From assembly GCF_029946185.1 (NCBI RefSeq), contig NZ_JAQSEA010000091.1, positions 1-58,350 on the forward strand: a stretch of DNA of 58,350 nt. The letters are read 5' to 3'. The DNA comes from Prosthecobacter sp. Lineage in GTDB: Bacteria > Verrucomicrobiota > Verrucomicrobiia > Verrucomicrobiales > Verrucomicrobiaceae. Of this stretch, positions 3,371 to 32,295 are shown one piece after another. Under the pieces are notes generated by a model. The model was not told the origin of the DNA, made no database searches, and saw only the letters and a program-made list of their open reading frames with translations. Both the position numbers and the translations under genes were made by a program. The number at the start of each line of letters is the position of its first letter. Position 1 is the stretch's first letter.

Positions 3371-4558
3371 ATGCGCCGGATTCTCATTTTAGCAGCTTTG
3401 TGTACCACAGCTTCACTGAGGGCTAACGATACGGTGATCCTAGCACCTGGTACGTCTTGGGCTCGTCACACCATCGACAATACCTCACGTGGAGCGGACG
3501 GGGTGAAGCTGGGGGATCTGAACAAGGATGGCCTGCCGGACATCGTCACCGGCTGGGAGGAGGGTGGTGTGGTGCGGGTTTATTTGAATCCCGGTGCGGC
3601 GAAAGCACTTGAGCCGTGGGAGCAGCTCACCGTGGGTGCGGTGAAAGATGTCGAAGAGGCGATCTTCACTGATCTGGATGGCGATGGAGAACTTGAGGTG
3701 GTCAGTGGCACTGAAGGCAAGACCTGCACGCTGTACTGGCATCGACTGGTGGACGGCGCATGGACTACGGAGGCCTTTCCAGCTGCGACAAACACCCAGA
3801 TGTGGATGCAGGTGGCGGCGCTTGATCTCGACGGGCAGCACGGACCCGACCTGCTGGTGGCATCCAAAAACAAAGGCGCTGCCGTGAGCTGGTTGCAGGC
3901 ACCGCAGAAGGCGGATGATCTCCAGGCATGGACATTGCACAAACTGCGCGATGCCGGCTGGGTCATGTCACTCACGCCGCAGGACATGGATGGTGATGGT
4001 GACGTGGATGCTGTTTTCAGCGACCGCAAAGGCGAATGTGCCGGCGTGTTTTGGTTGGAGAATCCCGGTGCAGCGGGGAATCGCAAGTATGCCGCATGGA
4101 CAGAGCATGCCATTGGCGGTCTGGGAAAACAGGTCATGTTTGCCGATCTCGGAGATGTGAATGGAGACGGCTTGATGGATGTCGCGGTGGCGGCCAAGCC
4201 GGTGGACATCGTGCTTTGTCTGTGCAAATCTGGGGGTGGGTGGGAGGAGCATGTACTGAAGCTGGATGGCGCAAACTTAGGCGATGCGAAAGCGGTCAAG
4301 ATTGCGGATCTGAATGGCGACAAACTGCCGGACCTCCTGTTCACTTGCGAAAATGCCAAAGGGAAACTTGAGGGCATTGTTTGGCTGGAGCAACAGCGCG
4401 GCGGACCCTGGAAGCAGCACACACTCGGCGGGCCCGAGGGCTTGAAGTATGATCTCATGCAGACGCTTGATCTGGACGGCGATGGCGATCTCGATGTCAT
4501 CACCTGTGAGGAGCGTGATCAACTTGGCGTGTTTTGGTATGAGAATCCGCACAAGTAA
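3371..4558 (+). CDS. Secreted FG-GAP/VCBS repeat beta-propeller protein
   Basis: About 395 residues. The ATG at 3371 directly precedes a signal peptide (MRRILILAALCTTASLRA); an ORF start at 3323 would overlap the upstream gene and bury the signal. The mature part is a series of FG-GAP/VCBS-like repeats, each with a calcium-binding DxNxDGLPD or DxDGDGDxD loop, for example GDLNKDGLPDIVTG, TDLDGDGELEVVSG, QDMDGDGDVDAVFS and LDLDGDGDLDVITC. The fold should be a seven-bladed propeller. Such proteins are common secreted partners of PVC dehydrogenases; no catalytic residues can be assigned. It is likely co-transcribed with the dehydrogenase (4-bp gap) and the ceramidase-like gene (16-bp gap). Confidence 0.85.
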   Translation: MRRILILAALCTTASLRANDTVILAPGTSWARHTIDNTSRGADGVKLGDLNKDGLPDIVTGWEEGGVVRVYLNPGAAKALEPWEQLTVGAVKDVEEAIFTDLDGDGELEVVSGTEGKTCTLYWHRLVDGAWTTEAFPAATNTQMWMQVAALDLDGQHGPDLLVASKNKGAAVSWLQAPQKADDLQAWTLHKLRDAGWVMSLTPQDMDGDGDVDAVFSDRKGECAGVFWLENPGAAGNRKYAAWTEHAIGGLGKQVMFADLGDVNGDGLMDVAVAAKPVDIVLCLCKSGGGWEEHVLKLDGANLGDAKAVKIADLNGDKLPDLLFTCENAKGKLEGIVWLEQQRGGPWKQHTLGGPEGLKYDLMQTLDLDGDGDLDVITCEERDQLGVFWYENPHK

Positions 4559-4574
4559 GACGTATTGAAGGGCC

Positions 4575-5987
4575 ATGAAATCTGTCATCTTCGCGCTGCT
4601 GATCATTGCACCTTCACTTTTCGGGCAATCCAAAATGCTTCGCGCGGGTGCGGCGGCGGTGGACATCACACCCACCGAGTTTCCCGTGAATATGCCCGGG
4701 GGATTCAGCAAGAACCTTGCGGACAAGGCGCATGATCCGTTTCATGCCCGCGCGCTCGTGCTCGACGATGGTAAAACGACGATCGCAATGGTGGTGGTGG
4801 ATGTTCTCGGTGCGGGCCCGGACGTGCTCAATGAAGCGAAGGCCATCGCCGCGGCAAAGACAGGCATGGCGGTGGACAAGATGCTCGTCAGCTCCACGCA
4901 TACACACAGCGGGCCGTCGGTGAATACACGTAGCGAGGCGGCGGCACGCTATTACAAGCGGTTTGTCGAGGGCATTGCGGAGTCGATCATCAAGGCGCAT
5001 GCGGCGCTGCGGCCAGCGACTGTCGGTGCTGCAGCTCACTCGCTTCCTGATGAAGTTTTCAATCGCCGCTGGTATCTGAAGCCGGGGAAAATGCCTCTCA
5101 ATCCCTTTGGCCGGATGGACAAGGTGAAGATGAATCCTGGCACCAGTCCGGATGTGATCGATCATCCTGCCGGACCCACGGACCCGGACATCACGATCAT
5201 TTCGGTGCAGGATGCCAAGCGGAAACCCCTTGCCGTTTATGCGAACTACTCGCTGCATTACGTGGGCGGCGCGCCTGCAGGCGAGATGTCGGCGGATTAC
5301 TTTGGTGAATTTGCCCGCGTCATGCCCTCACGCGTGCGTGGCGATGAAAACTTCGTGGCGATGATGTCCAACGGGACCTCCGGCGACATCAACAACATCC
5401 CTTTTGGCGTGACGCGTCCGCCGCGTGAACCGTTTGAGCAGATTCGCATTGTGGCACAAAAAGCGGCGGACACTGCGTGGCTGGCGCAGCGGAAGATTGA
5501 AAAACATCGGGGTGATGTAACGCTGGGCATGCTGCAGCGTGAGATCACTCTGAAGTATCGCCGCCCATCTGAGCAGGAGGTTGCGGAGGCGAAGGCGGTG
5601 CTCGCGGTGAAAGACAAGGAGGCTGTCGAGAAACTGCCGCGTCTGGCGAAAAACTATGCCGGGAGCGTGGTTGCCGCGATGGAGCGAAAGGAAGAAACAA
5701 TCACGGTGCAGCTGCAAGCCATTCGCATCGGTGATCTTGTCGTGTGTGCCATTCCATTTGAGACGTTTGTTGAGATCGGTCTCGATTTGAAAAAGCGCAG
5801 CCCGTTTCCGCAGACGATGGTCGTCGGTCTCGCCAATGGCCGCCACGGCTACCTGCCCACGCTGGAGCAGCACAAGCTCGGCGGCTACGAGACCTGGCTG
5901 GGCACGAATCAGGTGCAGGAGGACACAAGTGTCATTCTCACGGACAACCTGCTGGAGATGCTGGCGGAATTGAAGAAAGCGGAATGA
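4575..5987 (+). CDS. Neutral/alkaline non-lysosomal ceramidase-like hydrolase, secreted
   Basis: 470 residues with an N-terminal signal peptide (MKSVIFALLIIAPSLFGQ). The sequence matches the ceramidase N-terminal domain family: an AAAVDITPTE start, a zinc-site SSTHTHSGPS near residue 110, the NYSLHYVGG segment near residue 222, and SNGTSGDINN near residue 260, which holds the position of the nucleophilic Ser in neutral ceramidases. In environmental PVC bacteria this family is large and the true substrates are mostly unknown, so ceramide hydrolysis should not be assumed. It closes the plus-strand run beginning at 57 and converges on the histidine kinase gene with a 6-bp gap. Confidence 0.85.
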   Translation: MKSVIFALLIIAPSLFGQSKMLRAGAAAVDITPTEFPVNMPGGFSKNLADKAHDPFHARALVLDDGKTTIAMVVVDVLGAGPDVLNEAKAIAAAKTGMAVDKMLVSSTHTHSGPSVNTRSEAAARYYKRFVEGIAESIIKAHAALRPATVGAAAHSLPDEVFNRRWYLKPGKMPLNPFGRMDKVKMNPGTSPDVIDHPAGPTDPDITIISVQDAKRKPLAVYANYSLHYVGGAPAGEMSADYFGEFARVMPSRVRGDENFVAMMSNGTSGDINNIPFGVTRPPREPFEQIRIVAQKAADTAWLAQRKIEKHRGDVTLGMLQREITLKYRRPSEQEVAEAKAVLAVKDKEAVEKLPRLAKNYAGSVVAAMERKEETITVQLQAIRIGDLVVCAIPFETFVEIGLDLKKRSPFPQTMVVGLANGRHGYLPTLEQHKLGGYETWLGTNQVQEDTSVILTDNLLEMLAELKKAE

Positions 5988-25018: not shown

Positions 25019-26578
25019 ATGAAACTTGGCCTCTCCCTCGCCTGCCTGCTCGCCGGTTCCGTCTTCGGGGCGGATTTCGATCTTCTCATCAAGAATGCAC
25101 AAATCGCGGATGGCAGCGGTGGCCCGCTGGAGCATGGCAGTATTGCGGTGAAGGGCGGTCGCATCGTGGCGGTGGGGCGGGTGAAAGGCTCCGCTGATGC
25201 GATCATTGATGCCGGTGGAAAAGTTGCCGCCCCCGGTTTCATCGACGTCCACACCCACTCGGAAGACATCTGCCTCATCCCGGTGGCGGAGAATTTTCTG
25301 CGCATGGGCGTCACGACCATCATCACCGGCAACTGCGGTCATTCACGCACGGACGTGGCGAAGTTTTTCCAGGAGATCGAGGAATCCAAAGTCGCTCTCA
25401 ATGTGGCCACGCTGATCGGTCACGGTTCTGTACGTGAGCAGGGCATGGGCGGCAGTTTCATCCGTGCGCCGAATGCTGAGCAACTCGCTGCGATGGAAGG
25501 ATTCGTCGAACAGGCGATGAAGGATGGAGCGGTCGGATTGAGCACAGGTCTGATCTATGTGCCAGGCTCATTTGCCAAGACGGATGAGCTTATTGCGCTG
25601 GCGAAAATCGCCGCCGCCCATGACGGCATTTACGTCAGCCATATGCGCTACGAGACGACGCGTATTTTTCAGGCGCTCGACGAACTCATTCGCATTGCTA
25701 GGGAGGCCAAGATCCGCGCTGAAGTCTCCCATATCAAGCTCTCCGGCCCCAGCGCCTGGGGCAAGGCCAAGGAGGTGCTCAAGGTGCTCGACGAGGCGCG
25801 GGCTGCTGGTTTGAAAATCACTCAGGATCAATATGCCTATACCGCCTCCAGCACCGGCCTGCGCCAGACTCTGCCGGACAGCGCTCTGGAAGGCGAGCAT
25901 GCGGACTTCGTGGCCCGTGTTGCCGATCCGCAGAAGAAAGCCGCGATCATCGCCAGCATGGCCGAGATGCGCAGCCGCCAGGGGCGCAAGGATTACAGCT
26001 ACGCCGTGATCGCCCGCTGCAAGGCTGACCCGACGCTCAATGGCAAATCCATTCCTGAAGCCGCGAAGATGCGGCGCGGCGCAGACACTCTTGAAGACCA
26101 AATCGAAGTCATCCTTGAGATCGAAGCCCAAGGTGGTGCCAGCGCCATTTTTCACGGCATGAACGAAGACGATCTGCGCACCTTCCTGAAGCACCCGCTT
26201 ACCATGATCGCCAGCGATGGCGGCCCGCGTCGTCTCGGCGAGGACGTGCCGCATCCGCGCAGCTACGGCAACAACGCACGGGTGCTGGGCCGCTATGTGC
26301 GTGAACTGAAACTGACCACACTGTCCGAAGCCGTGCGCCGCATGACTTCATTGCCGGCGCAGACCTTTCAGCTCAAAGACCGTGGCGCGATCAAAGCGGG
26401 TGCCCATGCCGACATCGTGGTCTTTGATCCTGCCAAGGTCGGTGATTCTTCCACCTTCAGTGATCCCCACCATTACGCGGAGGGCTTCACTCATGTCATT
26501 GTGAACGGAGGCGTTACGATTCGGGACGGCAAGCTCACAGAGGTCCGGAACGGTGGCCCGCTGCGGATGGAGCGGTAG
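25019..26578 (+). CDS. N-acyl-D-amino-acid deacylase (D-aminoacylase family), secreted
   Basis: About 519 residues from the ATG at 25019, which begins a signal peptide (MKLGLSLACLLAGSVFGA); an upstream frame start at 24935 would destroy it. Amidohydrolase features are DLLIKNAQIADGSG, the metal motif FIDVHTHSED near residue 76, ITGNCGHSRTDV, YVSHMRYET, EVSHIKLSGP, and IASDGGPRRLG near residue 400 with the catalytic Asp. The C-terminal layout (KAGAHADIVVFDP) is typical. It likely releases D-amino acids from N-acyl forms; an exported location suggests scavenging. Divergent from ddl. Confidence 0.88.
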   Translation: MKLGLSLACLLAGSVFGADFDLLIKNAQIADGSGGPLEHGSIAVKGGRIVAVGRVKGSADAIIDAGGKVAAPGFIDVHTHSEDICLIPVAENFLRMGVTTIITGNCGHSRTDVAKFFQEIEESKVALNVATLIGHGSVREQGMGGSFIRAPNAEQLAAMEGFVEQAMKDGAVGLSTGLIYVPGSFAKTDELIALAKIAAAHDGIYVSHMRYETTRIFQALDELIRIAREAKIRAEVSHIKLSGPSAWGKAKEVLKVLDEARAAGLKITQDQYAYTASSTGLRQTLPDSALEGEHADFVARVADPQKKAAIIASMAEMRSRQGRKDYSYAVIARCKADPTLNGKSIPEAAKMRRGADTLEDQIEVILEIEAQGGASAIFHGMNEDDLRTFLKHPLTMIASDGGPRRLGEDVPHPRSYGNNARVLGRYVRELKLTTLSEAVRRMTSLPAQTFQLKDRGAIKAGAHADIVVFDPAKVGDSSTFSDPHHYAEGFTHVIVNGGVTIRDGKLTEVRNGGPLRMER

Positions 26579-26651
26579 CTCACAAATTGCTGGTGTCTGC
26601 TCCCAGAGGCGCTTTCCACGCTGCAGGCCCCGCACGCCCGCTAACAACAAA

Positions 26652-26676
26652 GCGGCGTCTGGATCACAGACGCCGC
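26652..26676 (-). terminator. Terminator of the Cys-rich lipoprotein gene
   Basis: A perfect 10-bp inverted repeat (GCGGCGTCTG and CAGACGCCGC with loop GATCA) lies between two convergent genes. On the minus strand it is followed by TTTGTTGTT, so it fits termination of the lipoprotein transcript; on the plus strand there is no T run, but the stem could still act in both directions. Confidence 0.7.
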
Positions 26677-26700
26677 CCTTGGGGTATGCCACGCTCCAGC

Positions 26701-27030
26701 TTAGTGGGTCGAGCAATGATGCAGGGTGCCGCCGCAGCTCTTGCAGGTGTGTGTAGGCAGTTCACCCTTCTTGCCCCAGGCGACGAGCTTGGTCTCGCAA
26801 TCCGGGCAGCTCATATGGCTGGAGGAGTGCAGGGTGACGATGCCTTTGTCTCCAGGAGCCGAGGTGACCGAGGGGGATTTAAACGTGACGGTGTGGCACT
26901 TGCTGCAGGTCACCGCGCTGGTAGGGCAGCAGCTGGCGTGTTTGGCAGTGGTGGCCTGACAGGAGACGAGAGCCAATGAGCTGACGGCCATGATGCCGGT
27001 GATGATGGATTTGATGAGTTTCTTTTTCAT
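26701..27030 (-). CDS. Cys/His-rich lipoprotein, probable metal-binding
   Basis: 109 residues from the ATG at 27030; the frame upstream is open but unrelated. A lipoprotein signal ends in LVSC, with lipid-carrying Cys24. The mature protein is packed with thiols: SCC (33-35), CSKC (42-45), CPDC, and a C-terminal HTCKSCGGTLHHCSTH. The pattern of CxxC pairs suggests zinc-ribbon-like or soft-metal (Cu, Zn, Cd) binding at the membrane. I recognise no named family. A motif identical in layout to those upstream of copA and the sigma operon lies at 27079-27102, so it is likely in the same metal regulon. A terminator follows at 26652-26676. Confidence 0.75.
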   Translation of the reverse strand: MKKKLIKSIITGIMAVSSLALVSCQATTAKHASCCPTSAVTCSKCHTVTFKSPSVTSAPGDKGIVTLHSSSHMSCPDCETKLVAWGKKGELPTHTCKSCGGTLHHCSTH

Positions 27031-27078
27031 GATGTGGGTTGTGTTGAGAGTTGAAGAAGCATCTGCTTCAACCAGACA

Positions 27079-27102
27079 AACCCCGGTGCTTTGGCAAACC
27101 CT
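27079..27102 (-). promoter_or_regulatory. Candidate ECF-sigma promoter of the Cys-rich lipoprotein gene
   Basis: Reading the minus strand, AGGGTTT (27102-27096), 11 bp, then GGGGTT (27084-27079). The same two boxes at the same spacing occur before the anti-sigma/sensor/sigma operon and before copA. The predicted leader to the ATG at 27030 is about 40 nt. Confidence 0.6.
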
Positions 27103-27142
27103 TGTAGGCCACAAGGCATGCACACTGCATGACAAGGCAGAG

Positions 27143-27715
27143 TCAGTCCGCCTGCGAACCACCGAGCGCGGCGCGCAAAATCTGGCGCGCGCGATAGATG
27201 CGCGTTTCCACTGCTTTGGACGTGCAGCCCACGGCGGCGGCGATCTCTGCGTAGCTCATGTCTTGGTAAGTGAAAAGCAGCATGGCCTCGCGCAAATCCT
27301 CGGGCAGGGCGGCGAGAGCGGCTTCGACGCGCTGCATCTTTTCACTGCGTTCCATTTGCTCATCCGGGCCGGGCTGTGGTTCCACACTCTCGGGAACATG
27401 ATCGTCTTCGTTATCGCGAGATACCGTGGGGTGCCGCTGGTTCCAGCGCGCATGATTGCGGGCGAGATTGGAGGCGATGCGGAAAAGATAGGTCGGAAAC
27501 GGCGCTGTGGGGCGGTAGCGCGCACGGCTCTGAAACAGCTTCACAAAAGTTTCCTGAGTGAGATCGACAGCCGTGGCGGCATTGCCGGTCATGCGCAGGA
27601 GAAACGCGGCCACCTTGTCCTTCCAGCGATGCATGAGATCGTTCAGCGCCAGATCATCGTCAGCAGCGAGTCGCTGCATTGCGGCTATGTCGGCGTCGGG
27701 AGGCGTGTCAGGCAT
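27143..27715 (-). CDS. ECF-type RNA polymerase sigma factor of a metal-sensing operon
   Basis: 190 residues. Region 2 (about 25-90) has AVDLTQETFVKLFQ and FPTYLFRIASNLARN. Region 4 (about 125-180) has LPEDLREAMLLFTYQDMSYAEIAAA and ETRIYRARQILR, with the helix-turn-helix of sigma-70 family group 4. It is the last gene of a three-gene minus-strand operon, 9 bp after the CnrX-like sensor. The order anti-sigma, sensor, sigma is that of cnrY-cnrX-cnrH in Cupriavidus. It probably directs transcription from the shared AGGGTTT-N11-GGKGTT motif, including its own operon. Confidence 0.92.
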   Translation of the reverse strand: MPDTPPDADIAAMQRLAADDDLALNDLMHRWKDKVAAFLLRMTGNAATAVDLTQETFVKLFQSRARYRPTAPFPTYLFRIASNLARNHARWNQRHPTVSRDNEDDHVPESVEPQPGPDEQMERSEKMQRVEAALAALPEDLREAMLLFTYQDMSYAEIAAAVGCTSKAVETRIYRARQILRAALGGSQAD

Positions 27716-27724
27716 GCGGGTGGT

Positions 27725-28219
27725 TCAGTGGGACGCATGGTCTGCAGCCGCCCGTGAGTGATCTGGCCCCAGCACATGGGGCAGAACGATCTTCAAGTAA
27801 TAGTCCGCTTGCGCAGGTGCCATGCAGGCGGCGGTTTCATAGACATGCTGCAGCATCGCCTGCTGGCACTCGAGAGTGAGATCGGCCCGTGCGCACATGA
27901 GTGTCACCACATCCCCCGACACCGTGCGGCTGCGCGAGGAGGACTCCATCAGCGCCTGATCAGAATGATGTACGCGCATGCACAGCTCCGCACATTTTGG
28001 CTGATAGGCCAGATGCAGAGCCTGCACTTTGGCAAACTGCTCGCCGGTGAGATGCAACGATTGTCGCAGCCATGCGAGTTCGGGCAGCAGGCTGTCGTGT
28101 TCGACCGGCATTGGTGTCGTGTTTGCACAGTCGCATGGTTTCAGTATCTGCTGCGAGCCAAAGAACATGCCCACTCCGAGCATGACGGCGACGAGTAGGA
28201 TGATCAGGCCGAGTTTCAT
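27725..28219 (-). CDS. CnrX-like periplasmic metal sensor, membrane-anchored
   Basis: 164 residues. One N-terminal membrane segment (about 3-22) is followed by a helical periplasmic domain of the CnrX/heavy-metal-sensor class: SLHLTGEQFAKVQALH (about 54-69), then YQPKCAELC (Cys76, Cys80) and LECQQAMLQHVYE. Potential ligands include Cys29, Cys31, Cys76, Cys80, Cys109, Cys118, Cys132 and several His. In CnrX, metal binding in the periplasm triggers release of the sigma factor held by CnrY. The many Cys residues differ from the His/Met/Glu site of CnrX and suggest a thiophilic ion such as Cu(I) (inference). It overlaps the anti-sigma gene by 4 bp. Confidence 0.75.
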   Translation of the reverse strand: MKLGLIILLVAVMLGVGMFFGSQQILKPCDCANTTPMPVEHDSLLPELAWLRQSLHLTGEQFAKVQALHLAYQPKCAELCMRVHHSDQALMESSSRSRTVSGDVVTLMCARADLTLECQQAMLQHVYETAACMAPAQADYYLKIVLPHVLGPDHSRAAADHASH

Positions 28220-28530
28220 TGCTGCACCTCGCGCAGAAAGGGATTGATCGATTCGGCATAGGCCAGCTCACCCTGTGTGTGGAAGGTCTCGCGGTGTTTG
28301 ATCCAGCCGAAGCCGCCGCCCAGCAGCATGCAGACGGAAATGGTGGCCAAAGCAGGTGCCGGCCGTGCCAGTGTTCCAAGCCATGATTGCCAGGCCTGCG
28401 AAAGCGCAGCACTGAGCGAGGGTGGGGCGTCAGTCTCGATACGCGCCCAGACCTCCCGTGTGAAGGAGCCGGGCAACGAAATAGGCGCGGGAGATTCGCG
28501 CAGGAGCTGGTGCAGTTGATCGTCGTTCAT
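28216..28530 (-). CDS. Putative transmembrane anti-sigma factor (CnrY-like position)
   Basis: 104 residues from the ATG at 28530; a second candidate start at 28554 would give a nearly leaderless message. The N-terminal 65 residues are cytoplasmic (DDQLHQLLRESPAPISLP then SFTREVWARIE). There is one transmembrane helix at about 65-80 (TISVCMLLGGGFGW) and a short periplasmic tail. Length and topology fit CnrY-type anti-sigma factors, which hold an ECF factor at the membrane. It is the first gene of the operon with the sensor and sigma genes. The role is inferred from position and topology, not from a strong family signature. Confidence 0.65.
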   Translation of the reverse strand: MNDDQLHQLLRESPAPISLPGSFTREVWARIETDAPPSLSAALSQAWQSWLGTLARPAPALATISVCMLLGGGFGWIKHRETFHTQGELAYAESINPFLREVQQ

Positions 28531-28559
28531 GGGATCAGGAGGATAATGTACCATGAAGT

Positions 28560-28583
28560 AACACCACCGTGCGCTCAAACCCT
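28560..28583 (-). promoter_or_regulatory. Candidate autoregulated ECF-sigma promoter of the metal-sensor operon
   Basis: On the minus strand, AGGGTTT (28583-28577), 11 bp, then GGTGTT (28565-28560). It has the same boxes and spacing as the elements before the lipoprotein gene and copA. It lies 29 bp before the ATG at 28530. Confidence 0.6.
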
Positions 28584-28635
28584 TGCGGAAACTATGCGGA
28601 TTTTGGCGCTGATTGCGGGATGATGAGATTTGTCG

Positions 28636-28659
28636 AGGGTTTCGATGAGCCACGGTGTT
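28636..28659 (+). promoter_or_regulatory. Candidate ECF-sigma promoter of the multicopper oxidase gene
   Basis: AGGGTTT (28636-28642), 11 bp, then GGTGTT (28654-28659). It matches the element of the divergent sigma operon in both boxes and in spacing. It ends 11 bp before the copA ATG, so the transcript would be almost leaderless; no ribosome-binding site is visible there. Confidence 0.6.
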
Positions 28660-28670
28660 TGACGTCTTGA

Positions 28671-30731
28671 ATGAACCCCCGTTCTCTCATACTCGCCTGC
28701 CTCAGTCTGATGACTGGCGCTTTGCCGTCGCCTTTGGTTGCGGCCACGGTGGAGTATGATCTGGAGATCGCGGAGCAGGTGCTGTCTCCTGCTGGCAAGC
28801 CGGTGAAAGCGCTGACCATCAATGGCACGATGCCCGGGCCCACGCTGCGATTCCGTGTAGGGGACACAGCGGTGATCCGTGTGCACAACCGGCTGAAGCA
28901 TGAGGAAACCTCCACTCACTGGCACGGGCTGTTGCTGCCGAATGAGCAGGATGGCGTGCCCTACGTGACCACGCCGCCGATCAAAGCTGGACAGACGCAC
29001 ACCTTCACCTTCCCACTGCGGCATGCGGGCACCTACTGGTTTCATTCGCACACTGGATTGCAGGAGCAGCGCGGCGTGCTGGGCAGCATCGTGGTGCTGC
29101 CACATGGAGGCGAAGCCGAGCATGCGGATGTGGACCAGGTGATGGTGCTCTCCGACTGGACGAATGAGAACCCGCACGAAGTGCTGCGCAGTCTCAAGCG
29201 TGGCACGAACTGGTATCCAGTGAAGAAAGGTACGGCGCAGAGCATCGTGGGGGCCATGCAAAAGGGCATGCTCAAGGATTACCTCGCCCGCGAGCGCTCA
29301 CGCATGCCGCCGATGGACATCTCGGACGTGGCGTATGATGCGTTTCTCATCAATGGCCTGCGCCAATTTGACGTTCCAGCGAAAGCAGGCCAGACGGTGC
29401 GCCTGCGCTTCATCAATGCCGGTGCAGCCACGTATTTCTATCTGGAGTCCGCGACGGGGCCGCTGACTATTGTCGCGGCAGATGGCACGCCGGTGCAGCC
29501 GGTAAAAGTGCAGCGGCTGCTGATGGGCATCGCAGAAACGTATGACGTCCTCCTGACCGTGCCAGCGAATGGACGATGGGAACTCCGCGCCACAGCGCAG
29601 GACGGTTCCGGTCGAAGCAGCGCTTTTTTTGGCAGTGGCACTGAGCATCCCGCGCCGGACGTGCCCAAACCAAATCTCTACAGCATGGATGACATGCTCA
29701 TGGCTGCGCTGAATGACATGGATGCCGACAGCACCGAGCCAGCGCCAGCGCGGCCCATGGCTCCCTATCGCAAGCTTCGCTCCGTGAAACCCACCACTCT
29801 GCCTGCAGGCTTGCCTGTTCGCGAAATGAAGCTGCGCCTCACCGGAGACATGCAGCGCTACATCTGGTCATTCAATGACAAGACCATCGATGAAGACGGC
29901 GTCATCCCGGTGAAGCGCGGCGAAATTCTTCGCATGGAACTCGTGAACGACACGATGATGCATCACCCCATCCATCTGCACGGGCATTTTTTCCGCCTGC
30001 TCAATGGGCAGGGCGCATGGTCGCCGCTGAAGCACACCGTTGATGTGCCGCCCATGGGACGCCGCACCATCGAGTTTGAGGCCAATGAGCAGGGCGACTG
30101 GATGTTCCACTGCCACATCCTCTATCACATGATGGAGGGTATGGCCCGCATCGTCAGTTATCAGAAGGCGCTGCCAATGGGCGGGGCTTCGCCCCATCTC
30201 ATGTCGCACATGCCTGCCATGGGTGAGCACGCCATGCCCATGCTCTACCCATTTGCTGACTTCAATGTGCTCTCCCAGCTCTCCGACGGCACCGCCACGC
30301 TGATGAGCGGTCGCAATGCTCTGCGTGTGCCATGGGAAATCGGCTGGCAACAAACCAACGGCAAAACCGAATACGAAATCGATCTCCTCTACGAGCGCTA
30401 TTTCAATCCCAACTTCGGCGCGTTCACCGGCGCACGCCTCACCAACATCTCCGGTGCCGAAAATCGTGCGATCGCGGGCTTCTGGTATCGGCTGCCCTAT
30501 CTGGTCGTGTTCACCGCGAATGTTGGCAGCACCGGCGATTTCCGCTTCAACATCGGCAAGACCTTTCAAATCACTCCGCGCTTCAGCGTCAATGCGCGTG
30601 CGCAGTATGACACGCAGCAGATATGGGAGCTCGCCTTCGGCGCGGAATACATGCTCACCAAGCGTCTGTCCCTCTCCACCGCCTACCATACTGATTATGG
30701 TTTTGGTGCCGGCCTCGGCTTCAGATTTTAA
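28671..30731 (+). CDS. copA: CopA-type multicopper oxidase fused to a CopB-like outer-membrane beta-barrel
   Basis: 686 residues with a Sec-type signal peptide ending near residue 25. The oxidase part has all copper clusters: THWHGLLLP near residue 83, TYWFHSHTGLQ near 125, HHPIHLHGHFF near 431, and HCHILYHMMEGM near 481 with Cys, His and the axial Met. This is the CopA/PcoA layout, although those usually carry Tat signals and longer Met-rich repeats; here there is only a short Met/Asp stretch near 340. The last 170 residues (about 515-686) are a predicted transmembrane beta-barrel (WEIGWQQTNGKTEYEIDLLY through AYHTDYGFGAGLGFRF) that resembles the C-terminal part of CopB. It probably oxidises periplasmic Cu(I). 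The two CX3C proteins follow immediately. Confidence 0.85.
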   Translation: MNPRSLILACLSLMTGALPSPLVAATVEYDLEIAEQVLSPAGKPVKALTINGTMPGPTLRFRVGDTAVIRVHNRLKHEETSTHWHGLLLPNEQDGVPYVTTPPIKAGQTHTFTFPLRHAGTYWFHSHTGLQEQRGVLGSIVVLPHGGEAEHADVDQVMVLSDWTNENPHEVLRSLKRGTNWYPVKKGTAQSIVGAMQKGMLKDYLARERSRMPPMDISDVAYDAFLINGLRQFDVPAKAGQTVRLRFINAGAATYFYLESATGPLTIVAADGTPVQPVKVQRLLMGIAETYDVLLTVPANGRWELRATAQDGSGRSSAFFGSGTEHPAPDVPKPNLYSMDDMLMAALNDMDADSTEPAPARPMAPYRKLRSVKPTTLPAGLPVREMKLRLTGDMQRYIWSFNDKTIDEDGVIPVKRGEILRMELVNDTMMHHPIHLHGHFFRLLNGQGAWSPLKHTVDVPPMGRRTIEFEANEQGDWMFHCHILYHMMEGMARIVSYQKALPMGGASPHLMSHMPAMGEHAMPMLYPFADFNVLSQLSDGTATLMSGRNALRVPWEIGWQQTNGKTEYEIDLLYERYFNPNFGAFTGARLTNISGAENRAIAGFWYRLPYLVVFTANVGSTGDFRFNIGKTFQITPRFSVNARAQYDTQQIWELAFGAEYMLTKRLSLSTAYHTDYGFGAGLGFRF

Positions 30732-30743
30732 CCAAACCCACCC

Positions 30744-30977
30744 ATGAAAACCAAACTCGCAATCCTACTGTTACTCACCTCATTCAGCCTTCAGGCTGCC
30801 ACGGGAACGAAGCCTTATCCTCTCAAGACCTGCCTCGTCAGCGGCAACACACTCGGATCCATGGGCGATCCTGTCACGAAGGTCTATGCCGGTCAGGAGA
30901 TCAAATTCTGCTGCAAGCCCTGCGTGAAAAAATTTGAAGCCAATCAGCCCAAATATCTGTCTAAACTTCCCCGTTAA
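30744..30977 (+). CDS. Small secreted CX3C (TRASH/YHS-like) metal-binding protein, copy 1
   Basis: 77 residues with a signal peptide (MKTKLAILLLLTSFSLQA). The mature domain has TCLVSGNTLGSMGDPVTKV and FCCKPCVKKFE. Cys30 and the Cys56-x3-Cys60 pair reproduce the TRASH-type arrangement of a Cys followed about 25 residues later by CxxxC, with an extra Cys57. Such domains bind copper or other soft metals. It lies 12 bp after copA and 20 bp before a paralogue and is likely in the copA operon. A periplasmic metallochaperone or buffer role is inferred. Confidence 0.75.
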   Translation: MKTKLAILLLLTSFSLQAATGTKPYPLKTCLVSGNTLGSMGDPVTKVYAGQEIKFCCKPCVKKFEANQPKYLSKLPR

Positions 30978-30997
30978 ATCACCCACTGCCCACCCTT

Positions 30998-31264
30998 ATG
31001 AAAGCCATTCTTGCTCTCCTCCTCGTTACCGCTGTTTGCAGCGTCAGTTTCCTGCATGCCGCCCCTGAAGGCATTCCCGCCGCCTACCCGCTCAAAACCT
31101 GCGCCGTCTCCGGCGAAGCTTTCGGCGGTGAAATGGGCAAGCCGGTCAAAGTCACTCACGAAGGCACGGACGTTTATCTCTGCTGCAAATCCTGCCTCAA
31201 GGACTTCAAAGCGGATCCCGCCAAGTATGTGAAGATGGTCAAAGACGCCGCTGCCAAAAAGTAA
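30998..31264 (+). CDS. Small secreted CX3C (TRASH/YHS-like) metal-binding protein, copy 2
   Basis: 88 residues with a signal peptide ending near residue 22. It is a tandem paralogue of the preceding gene: TCAVSGEAFGGEMGKPVKV and LCCKSCLKDFKADPAKY, with Cys35, Cys62, Cys63 and Cys66 in the same arrangement. The tail is Lys-rich. The order copA, copy 1, copy 2 suggests one copper-handling operon; it converges on a glycosyltransferase gene with an 11-bp gap. Confidence 0.75.
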   Translation: MKAILALLLVTAVCSVSFLHAAPEGIPAAYPLKTCAVSGEAFGGEMGKPVKVTHEGTDVYLCCKSCLKDFKADPAKYVKMVKDAAAKK

Positions 31265-31275
31265 GCGCCATTACC

Positions 31276-32295
31276 TCAGGCCAGTCTCTGGCATACCCAT
31301 TCGCCGATGCCGCGTGCGTCCTGATCGGTCACGCTTGCATCGCGCTGGCATTCCTCAGCACTGAATTCGCTCCGCGTCGCGATGCGTCCGCCTTTCCAGA
31401 CGTGAACGCCGGACGGATACGGACCGACTTTGCGAGGATCGCTCCAAGTATGGATGCCGAGTGTCTGCGGATTGACCGCAGCGGCGATGTGCATGGGGCC
31501 GCTGTCCACACTGATGCAGAACTTCGCCCGACGCATGATCCAGATCAGCTCCGGCAGGGAGGTGCGCTGACTCCAGTCGTGAATATGGCTGCCTGTTGGG
31601 CGAGTCGTATCAGCCGTCATGCCAACGAGGACGACCGGATGCGGAGCCAGGGCATCGCACAGGGCCTGCAAGGCGGAATTCGAGAGGGATTTGCCCTCGC
31701 CACGCGACCAGGGATGCACGGCGATGAAATTTTGCAGCGCGTCCGGCCAGCCGGTGGGGGCTGCACCAGGGGTGAGTTCAAAGGAGTTGTCGTCCGGCTC
31801 GATCTCGATGCCCAAGGCGCGCGGAAGTTCGAGATAACGGTCCACGGCATGGGCACCGGCATTCACGGGCACCGTGTGATTGTAAAAAAGGCGGGAGCCT
31901 TCACGCGCATCCGAAAGTCCGATGACGGTTTGGGAGCCACGCCAGCTGCTGACCACTCCGCTGCGCAGCAGACCTTGGAAATCGAGCACGATCTCGGGTT
32001 CCTCACGCGGCAGCGTCATCCAGGTGCGCCGCCAGTTCCAGAAGCGCAGCAGACCGGCGAGACCGCGAAAAGTTTTGCGCGGGAAGGGGATCACCTCGTC
32101 GAGCAGTGGGCTGCCCTGCAGAATCGGTGTCCATTCGGTGTTGGCGAGCCAGCGGATTTTTAGATGAGGATGCGCGACACGCAGCGCTTTTACGGCAGGC
32201 AGCGCGTGGACGATATCTCCCAATGAACTGGGTTTGACGATGAGCGCGGAGCGGAAATCACGCAGGCTGGGAAGCTGGCGCGTGGCGGCGCTCAT
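31276..32295 (-). CDS. Glycosyltransferase family 9 (heptosyltransferase-like)
   Basis: 339 residues. GT9 features are IVKPSSLGDIVHALPAVKAL at the N-terminus, WLANTEWTPIL, a central IAVHPWSRGEGKSLS, and the donor-binding CISVDSGPMHIAAAVNPQTLGI near residue 270. These enzymes transfer heptose from ADP-heptose to the lipopolysaccharide core at the inner membrane; the closest pattern is heptosyltransferase I. Its start overlaps the stop of the metallophosphoesterase gene by 4 bp, so the pair forms an operon on the minus strand. Confidence 0.87.
   Translation of the reverse strand: MSAATRQLPSLRDFRSALIVKPSSLGDIVHALPAVKALRVAHPHLKIRWLANTEWTPILQGSPLLDEVIPFPRKTFRGLAGLLRFWNWRRTWMTLPREEPEIVLDFQGLLRSGVVSSWRGSQTVIGLSDAREGSRLFYNHTVPVNAGAHAVDRYLELPRALGIEIEPDDNSFELTPGAAPTGWPDALQNFIAVHPWSRGEGKSLSNSALQALCDALAPHPVVLVGMTADTTRPTGSHIHDWSQRTSLPELIWIMRRAKFCISVDSGPMHIAAAVNPQTLGIHTWSDPRKVGPYPSGVHVWKGGRIATRSEFSAEECQRDASVTDQDARGIGEWVCQRLA

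Follow-up and report, generated by a model that had tools for sequence, protein, structure and literature searches.

The nickel/cobalt system CnrYXH of Cupriavidus metallidurans is encoded in the order anti-sigma factor, sensor, sigma factor, and promoters read by its sigma factor stand before both regulatory and effector genes (cnrYp and cnrCp; PMC9045368). We analyzed a stretch of DNA of 58,350 nucleotides from Prosthecobacter sp. (contig NZ_JAQSEA010000091.1; the window), in which the same gene order is found, likewise with a membrane-anchored sensor that resembles CnrX. A two-box element, AGGGTTT-N11-GGKGTT, stands before the anti-sigma/sensor/sigma operon, before a gene for a CopA-like multicopper oxidase, and before a gene for a Cys-rich lipoprotein. 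Judged from its sequence, the locus very probably encodes an autoregulated extracytoplasmic function (ECF) sigma factor circuit for metal stress that serves these three units from one promoter type. The gene content and the CnrX-like sensor point to a metal, and copper is the most likely one.

By analogy, the module appears to work like CnrYXH and to have a related sensor. The sensor here has conserved cysteines at positions 76, 80, and 118, unlike that of CnrYXH. Where CnrYXH has a resistance-nodulation-division pump as its effector, this locus has an oxidase, small metal-binding proteins, and a lipoprotein. When solved sigma factors were ranked, CnrH came eighth (2.5e-15), behind sigma-H (6in7, 1e-22), SigE, and entries for Escherichia coli sigma-E. 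Since the ligands differ and the sigma factor is not specially close to CnrH, we did not file the locus as a member of CnrYXH.

Other described systems share single features with it. CorE of Myxococcus xanthus is also an ECF sigma factor of copper genes, including the oxidase gene cuoB, and its consensus was drawn from four promoters (PMC3107203, PMC10141476). CorE is reported to be controlled by its own Cys-rich C-terminal extension in place of an anti-sigma factor (PMC10141476). The sigma factor described here lacks such an extension, and its gene is in one operon with those for a sensor and a candidate anti-sigma factor; CorE is a different design. The promoters of E. coli sigma-E and Mycobacterium tuberculosis sigma-H also consist of two short boxes at a rigid spacing, and GTT likewise forms the core of the second sigma-H box (PMC6411747, PMC6713349), but the first box here is AGGG-N-TT rather than GGAAC, and a conserved GG precedes N-GTT. 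Orthogonal ECF sets (Rhodius et al. 2013; PMC3817407) likewise contain related sigma factors with distinct promoter preferences; here, by contrast, a natural pair of sigma factors, 55% identical, occurs in one genome, with promoters that differ mainly at two bases.

Three copies of one promoter element

The element occurs three times in the window, each time without a mismatch and with a spacer of 11, exactly where the first-pass annotation of this DNA had placed it, boxes included. The third base of the second box is G at the lipoprotein site and T at the operon and oxidase sites, which bears out the K that had been written there. Allowing up to two mismatches gave the same three sites in the window and no more. 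The sites, with the predicted start that goes with one of them, are as follows.

27079..27102, minus strand: lipoprotein promoter; AGGGTTT at 27096-27102, N11, GGGGTT at 27079-27084; a site also stands before the lipoprotein homologues of relatives
28560..28583, minus strand: promoter of the anti-sigma/sensor/sigma operon; AGGGTTT-N11-GGTGTT; present in 8/8 nearest loci
28636..28659, plus strand: promoter of the multicopper oxidase gene; AGGGTTT-N11-GGTGTT; divergent from the operon promoter
28668..28671, plus strand: predicted start region of the oxidase message; TGAA at element positions 33-36, reaching the ATG at 28671; placed from the downstream consensus

We then searched the genome from which the window comes (6,187,319 bases in 317 contigs, 95.9% complete). 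The exact pattern has three matches in these 6.19 Mb, every one at the window locus, and the reversed pattern has none in the whole genome, where 0.138 exact matches are expected under a first-order Markov model of the window. The chance of three sites within 1.6 kb is of the order of 1e-11, but this figure is post hoc, the pattern having been derived from these very sites. With up to one mismatch (GGNGTT form), 23 sites were found in this genome, the three exact ones included, compared to 37 for the control; with no excess over the control, we rejected a wider regulon of such sites. Among 20 of the one-mismatch loci that were inspected, three AGGGGTT-GGAGTT sites have the best promoter context, and three others (L107, L112, and L115) also lie outside long frames. 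The regulon had been called self-contained. That description holds for the exact consensus, and less strictly when one mismatch is allowed, in which case L107, L112, and L115 are possible extra sites.

The element in relatives

Loci were fetched by similarity to the sigma factor, with no use of the motif, from genomes of the genus, order, and phylum and from named genomes (the best 80 of 172; records for Prosthecobacter, Verrucomicrobiaceae, Akkermansiaceae, Luteolibacter, Haloferula, and others). This gave 181 loci, of which 159 with distinct sigma factors were used. We searched them for a relaxed form, NGGGNTT-N(s)-GGNGTT, with spacers s of 5 to 18. At spacer 11, the 61 loci whose sigma factor is at least 50% identical (656 kb) contain 106 matches, compared to 0 for the reversed pattern. 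The other spacers gave 0 to 10 matches in the same loci, those at 10 and 12 being partly spacer-11 sites read in a shifted register. The 98 loci with a sigma factor less than 50% identical (907 kb) have 9 matches, compared to 3 reversed.

At least one spacer-11 site is present in 52 of the 61 loci of the sigma clade, including those of deep lineages (Methylacidiphilaceae L247, LW23 L220, and Haloferula L214). At the eight nearest loci, window included, a site precedes the anti-sigma gene in 8/8 and the lipoprotein gene in 8/8, and sites are divergent in 6/8. Spacer sequences in these eight are only 67 to 80% conserved; box conservation there is fixed by the search pattern and is no result in itself. 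A clade of 23 paralogous sigma factors within the genus serves as a natural negative control, with a relaxed match at one locus (L101). Counting word pairs in 17 nonredundant upstream regions of that clade gave best pairs in 7/17, compared to 3 to 5 in five shuffles. L101 is in the same genome as the window (C163:1-11000), where it carries a third sigma/sensor module with a sigma factor about 46% identical and no clear promoter of either of the two classes described below; its single match, CGGGTTT-N11-GGGGTT, is on the opposite strand.

The exact pattern was also counted in 56 genomes, the window's own included. It has 47 matches in 26 genomes, compared to 25 in all for the reversed control. 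A hand count placed a sigma homologue no more than 2.5 kb away from 33 of the 47. We examined 13 of the remaining 14 matches (all but G012:C120), and three have a fitting context: an anti-sigma gene on a separate contig (L047), a Cys-rich exported protein (L102), and an exported protein of 482 aa (L056). Seven of the other ten fall inside a stop-free frame of at least 150 codons, a loose sign of coding that covers L047 and L056 too.

Taken together, the co-occurrence of element and sigma clade, the near-absence of the element from paralogues, the rigid spacing, and the positions of the sites in relatives support the proposal, made in the first-pass annotation, that the sigma factor encoded at 27143 would drive the operon, oxidase, and lipoprotein promoters.

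Promoter anatomy and predicted starts

Over the 106 sites the consensus is R-AGGG[T/G/A]TT-N11-GG[T/A]GTT-N2-[A/T]C-N4-TGAA, in which the fixed letters of the boxes were set by the search pattern and the flanking letters were free. The second box of sigma-H has a GTT core with its last T at -9, and ECF sigma factors demand a rigid promoter spacing (PMC6411747). If the GTT core of the element is equated with that box, the start should fall near position 33, inside TGAA. TGAA is present after the oxidase and lipoprotein sites of the window. The element stands before the sigma operon itself, as in an autoregulated ECF promoter.

Genes of the locus and the proposed circuit

The three units comprise the following genes.

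26701..27030, minus strand: gene for the Cys-rich lipoprotein, 109 aa; resembles zinc ribbons weakly, under the Pfam cutoff
27143..27715, minus strand: ECF sigma factor, 190 aa; Sigma70_r2 and Sigma70_r4_2
27725..28219, minus strand: membrane-anchored periplasmic sensor, 164 aa, CnrX/NccX-like; conserved H69, C76, C80, C118, and H125
28216..28530, minus strand: candidate anti-sigma protein, 104 aa; by eye, a single hydrophobic helix; role suggested by its position
28671..30731, plus strand: multicopper oxidase, CopA-like, 686 aa; residues from about 524 to 686 predicted to form a C-terminal beta domain of 12 strands
30744..30977, plus strand: small exported YHS/TRASH-like protein, 77 aa; below the Pfam cutoff; probably in the oxidase operon, from spacing
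30998..31264, plus strand: small exported YHS/TRASH-like protein, 88 aa; below the Pfam cutoff; probably in the oxidase operon, from spacing

The sigma factor has regions 2 and 4 only, as ECF (group IV) sigma factors do (PF04542 and PF08281 above cutoff; TIGR02937 at 105.2 bits, cutoff 42.9). The order anti-sigma, sensor, sigma recurs in relatives, and overlap and spacing of the genes suggest cotranscription.

A profile built from 43 sensors matched NccX best in the PDB (2.5e-7), along with CnrX (2.1e-5). PF13801 is matched at E<=0.1 by 38 of the 43 members; the window's own sensor did not match it at that threshold. The AlphaFold model of the sensor (predicted local distance difference test [pLDDT], 87.3; predicted template modeling score, 0.67) has CnrX as its best fold match, with a Z of 10.1 and a root mean square deviation of 2.3 over 103 residues. 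Sequence and predicted fold together support kinship of the sensor with CnrX and NccX. The metal ligands of CnrX are H42, H46, E63, and H119. Of these four, H119 alone has a conserved equivalent in the sensor, H125; H42, H46, and E63 lack one, and Cys 76, 80, and 118 are found instead. The conserved set H69, C76, C80, C118, and H125 suggests a softer metal site than the nickel/cobalt one. In the anti-sigma family, F23, W28, P57, Y91, and P97 are invariant.

In the circuit we propose, the periplasmic sensor and the small membrane anti-sigma protein would keep the sigma factor at the membrane, and binding of metal by the sensor would free it. RNA polymerase with the freed sigma factor, whose domain 4 would read the first box and whose domain 2 would read GTT, would initiate at R-AGGGTTT-N11-GGTGTT-N2-WC-N4-TGAA, with a start at about TGAA. 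It would thereby transcribe the regulatory operon, giving positive feedback, the oxidase gene with those for two small metal-binding proteins, and the gene for the Cys-rich lipoprotein.

The full-length model of the oxidase is poor (pLDDT 54.5) and fairly confident only in its C-terminal part. There, the extension from about 524 to 686 is predicted to form 12 beta-strands that end near a C-terminal F, with a pLDDT mostly of 77 to 88 in the block. The C-terminal part of two oxidase homologues matches CopB weakly (0.0021 and 0.0098); the window's own oxidase has no CopB match. On the predicted model, the protein resembles a fusion of a CopA-type oxidase with an outer-membrane barrel.

A second promoter class in the same genome

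Two classes dominate the 106 sites, AGGGTTT-GGTGTT (40 sites) and AGGGGTT-GGAGTT (34 sites). Sites of different sigma clades differ at the fifth base of the first box (base 5) and at the third base of the second box (base 21). The first class has the widest lineage range. The second belongs to one supported clade of 18 sigma factors (100/99), which also holds AGGGATT and other variants.

The window's own genome has both, the first at the window locus and the second at a locus on contig C269 with a 55% identical sigma factor. This second sigma/sensor/anti-sigma module (C269:1-11000, L091) carries AGGGGTT-N11-GGAGTT at 3595-3618 and 5642-5665, and from these sequences a sister clade of modules appears to run in parallel in the same genome. 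The C269 module has small Cys-rich/TRASH-like proteins of its own. A third AGGGGTT-GGAGTT site of this genome, on contig C4 at 3562-3585 (L104), lies ahead of a gene for 164 aa which, by eye, is the gene behind such a site at the sigma locus of another species (L083).

In eight hand-picked genomes with both types, loci of the first type have 13 sites with TT and 1 with TG at bases 5 and 21, and loci of the second type have 21 GA, 2 GC, 1 AC, and 1 TA; the loci are nearly class-pure. Outside these eight, five loci are of mixed type (L203, L126, L070, L071, and L148). At L076 (7115-10847), two modules, one per promoter class, stand in tandem on one contig. In genome G032, AGGGTTT-N11-GGTGTT at L074 12483-12506 stands before an exported 482-aa protein.

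We compared sigma residues with promoter bases in 44 sigma factors. The choice of T or A at base 21 goes with changes of N87 to S/T, Y150 to V/L, and T171 (or M) to V with no overlap, on class labels that are coarse, having been given by hand in spite of TG and TA sites at L095, GGCGTT at L087, and CA and GC sites at L127. The change of R79 to H follows base 21 as well, except at L123, which has H with T. The link between base 5 and residue 155 (Y, Q, or H) is loose. T171 presumably corresponds to S172 of sigma-E, and Y155 to Y156. Both sigma-E residues contact the -35 element (PMC6713349). These specificity residues are only candidates, because the changes follow descent and N87 also occurs in paralogues that have no motif.

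Leaders of the regulon messages

Oxidase homologues are found downstream of the element at 11 loci, with another gene intervening at one (L077). In the other ten (the window, L065, L066, L070, L071, L073, L125, L148, L190, and L192), the ATG lies 9 to 11 nt past the element. Because this ATG falls inside the start consensus, the oxidase message is probably leaderless or almost so, provided that translation does begin at this first ATG, where the signal peptide starts. The nearly leaderless message that had been proposed for the window's gene therefore gains support as a conserved arrangement. Lipoprotein leaders are 48 to 66 nt from element to ATG (20 listed). Distances from tblastn for some oxidases (36, 42, 55, and -3) and for two lipoproteins (31) reflect alignments that start at a residue other than the first; the ATGs were read from the sequences.

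The lipoprotein message would carry an inverted repeat where its 5' end is predicted.

27050..27072, minus strand: inverted repeat GTTGAAG...CTTCAAC, predicted 5' end of the lipoprotein message

Such repeats recur in the regulon. When a 30-nt window was slid over 66 nonredundant promoters, the mean z score (dinucleotide shuffles) was near 0 around the promoter and downstream, apart from a sharp minimum of -1.53 where the start is predicted, at position 34 (n = 65; 42% at p<=0.05). A secondary dip of -0.29 to -0.55 at window starts -48 to -30 perhaps reflects terminators of preceding genes. A repeat from position 34 is present in 28 of 50 leaders at p<=0.05. Per gene, by mononucleotide shuffles (used also for the comparison with control regions below), the counts at p<=0.05 are 7/10 for the lipoprotein (10/10 at p<=0.2), 7/8 for the second TRASH family, 3/6 for the first (6/6 at p<=0.2), 9/18 for other reading frames, 2/8 for anti-sigma genes with long leaders, and, outside the 50, 0/2 for those with short leaders and 0/3 for the oxidase.

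Pair counting in 12 leaders gave 72.9% paired cells, compared to 15.6 to 39.6% in slid registers. Shuffles matched the percentage in 54/500 cases, the covariation score in 25/500, and the number of pair types in 9/500, which is weak covariation. Rfam gave nothing in 26400-31500 and only a tRNA in four relatives. A tighter estimate of repeat position (standard deviation of 3.2 from the promoter and 8.4 from the ATG) was discarded as biased, since its window was tied to the promoter and only hairpin-bearing leaders were used.

Discussion

Several observations weigh against the circuit as drawn. Nine of the 61 loci of the sigma clade lack an exact site; five of them (L206, L207, L212, L216, and L217) have a near match ending in GTA, GTG, TTT, or TTA, L096 ends at a contig edge, and L149, L210, and L219 yielded nothing convincing. 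The window's operon promoter lacks the downstream WC and TGAA consensus, and the gap between the boxes is about 3 bp below the 17-bp optimum of M. tuberculosis sigma-H, depending on where the box edges are drawn (PMC6411747). Promoter class tracks sigma phylogeny. The oxidase scores below the TIGR01480 (CopA) cutoff, 405.7 versus 478.95 bits, and is CopA-like only. The sensor profile matches coiled-coil chains of Bicaudal D next (1.5e-4), the best Foldseek E value for the sensor model, that to CnrX, is only 0.018, and unrelated helical chains reach a Z of 8.7 against this model. A profile search with the anti-sigma family found no detectable solved relative.

A single exact site would be unremarkable in a 6-Mb genome, but three at one locus with none elsewhere, recurring in relatives whose spacers have diverged, make chance resemblance a negligible prospect; we rejected it on the genome count, the expectation, and the 106 relaxed matches in relatives compared to none reversed. 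Conserved bases alone do not name their reader, and the element might instead be an operator for a regulator encoded elsewhere, or a composite of operator and housekeeping promoter, while the sigma factor reads something else. Genome G032 speaks for such an operator, having an AGGGTTT-GGTGTT site and, at E<=1e-40, only a second-class sigma factor. Still, the class of the element switches with the sigma clade, also within the eight genomes with both types, loci of the paralogue clade nearly lack the element, and two asymmetric boxes at a single spacing with a start-like downstream consensus fit a promoter, not a dimer operator; we regard the operator as very improbable. That the circuit is real and answers to a signal other than copper (nickel/cobalt, silver, zinc, or thiol stress) we consider unlikely, though a live concern: the nearest solved relatives of the sensor are the nickel/cobalt sensors CnrX and NccX, and the CopA score is under its cutoff. 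Against this stand a regulon of a CopA-like oxidase (with two homologues weakly matching CopB) and of TRASH-like and Cys-rich exported proteins, and a conserved set of sensor residues rich in cysteine. An autoregulated circuit for metal stress, most likely from copper, fits these findings best.

The inverted repeats are harder to judge. Leaders in these bacteria might carry such repeats generally, or the repeats might be unrelated to this system. By a looser measure, a structured stretch is present in 53% of 88 control upstream regions, compared to 78% of 64 regulon leaders (p=1.4e-5). The sense strand is no more stable than the antisense (each is favored in 28 of 58 cases, and the mean difference of 0.46 kcal/mol favors the antisense, p=0.29), and RNAalifold predicted no pairs on two MAFFT leader alignments. 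With a free window, the loop of the repeat is only somewhat tighter to the promoter than to the ATG (standard deviations of 6.7 and 8.3 in 43 leaders with E<=-4; 7.4 and 8.9 in all 49); random placement in the leader, on the other hand, gives 11.8, with a minimum of 8.1 in 2,000 draws, and the drop in mean z at position 34 also argues for a link to the promoter. Because the free-window figures are the weaker ones, we lowered our confidence in the broader picture given below and raised it for a general or unrelated feature, which we now see as quite possible, a little short of an even chance. If the repeat is real, its most likely role by analogy would be to stabilize messages, a proposal about as likely to hold as to fail. 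Stabilizing 5'-terminal stem-loops (ompA, papA, and aprE) likewise place a hairpin at or next to the 5' end of a message. Those known cases are single messages, as far as the titles cited in PMC3997798 go; here the repeats recur regulon-wide and the stems differ.

A broader picture can be offered tentatively, as one somewhat more likely to fail than to hold. In it, the promoters would carry a 5' repeat module, free in stem and fixed in place, on the messages of small metal-binding proteins, while the oxidase message would lack a leader and those of the nearest regulatory operons would be short and plain, so that one sigma factor might set several output levels through stability or translation mode. 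Two insulated copies of the circuit would have diverged by one base per box and a few sigma residues (candidates T171V, N87S, R79H, and Y155H/Q).

We found no description of this regulon among the open-access papers listed by our searches, and the word Verrucomicrobi- is absent from the main text of PMC10141476 and PMC8103513. The first-pass annotation held that regulon and promoter could be defined from sequence alone. For the element, its sigma clade, and the likely targets this has worked, across Verrucomicrobiota; start sites and dependence on the sigma factor stay predictions. That annotation had included neither the second promoter class, with a sigma factor of its own in this genome, nor the inverted repeat at predicted starts; these are the more surprising parts. 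Paired promoter classes in one genome offer a natural test case of how ECF sigma specificity can change without loss of function. If the repeats act in RNA, an alternative sigma factor would here be coupled to a posttranscriptional layer that spans its regulon.

Leaders of the AGGGGTT class have a regularity of their own. After the element, L079 (5109-5178), L088 (4777-4853), and similar leaders contain a very regular stretch, GCAC..GATGAACGC, perhaps a signal in the initially transcribed region or a very small upstream frame; in several of them a short ATG lies near the predicted start.

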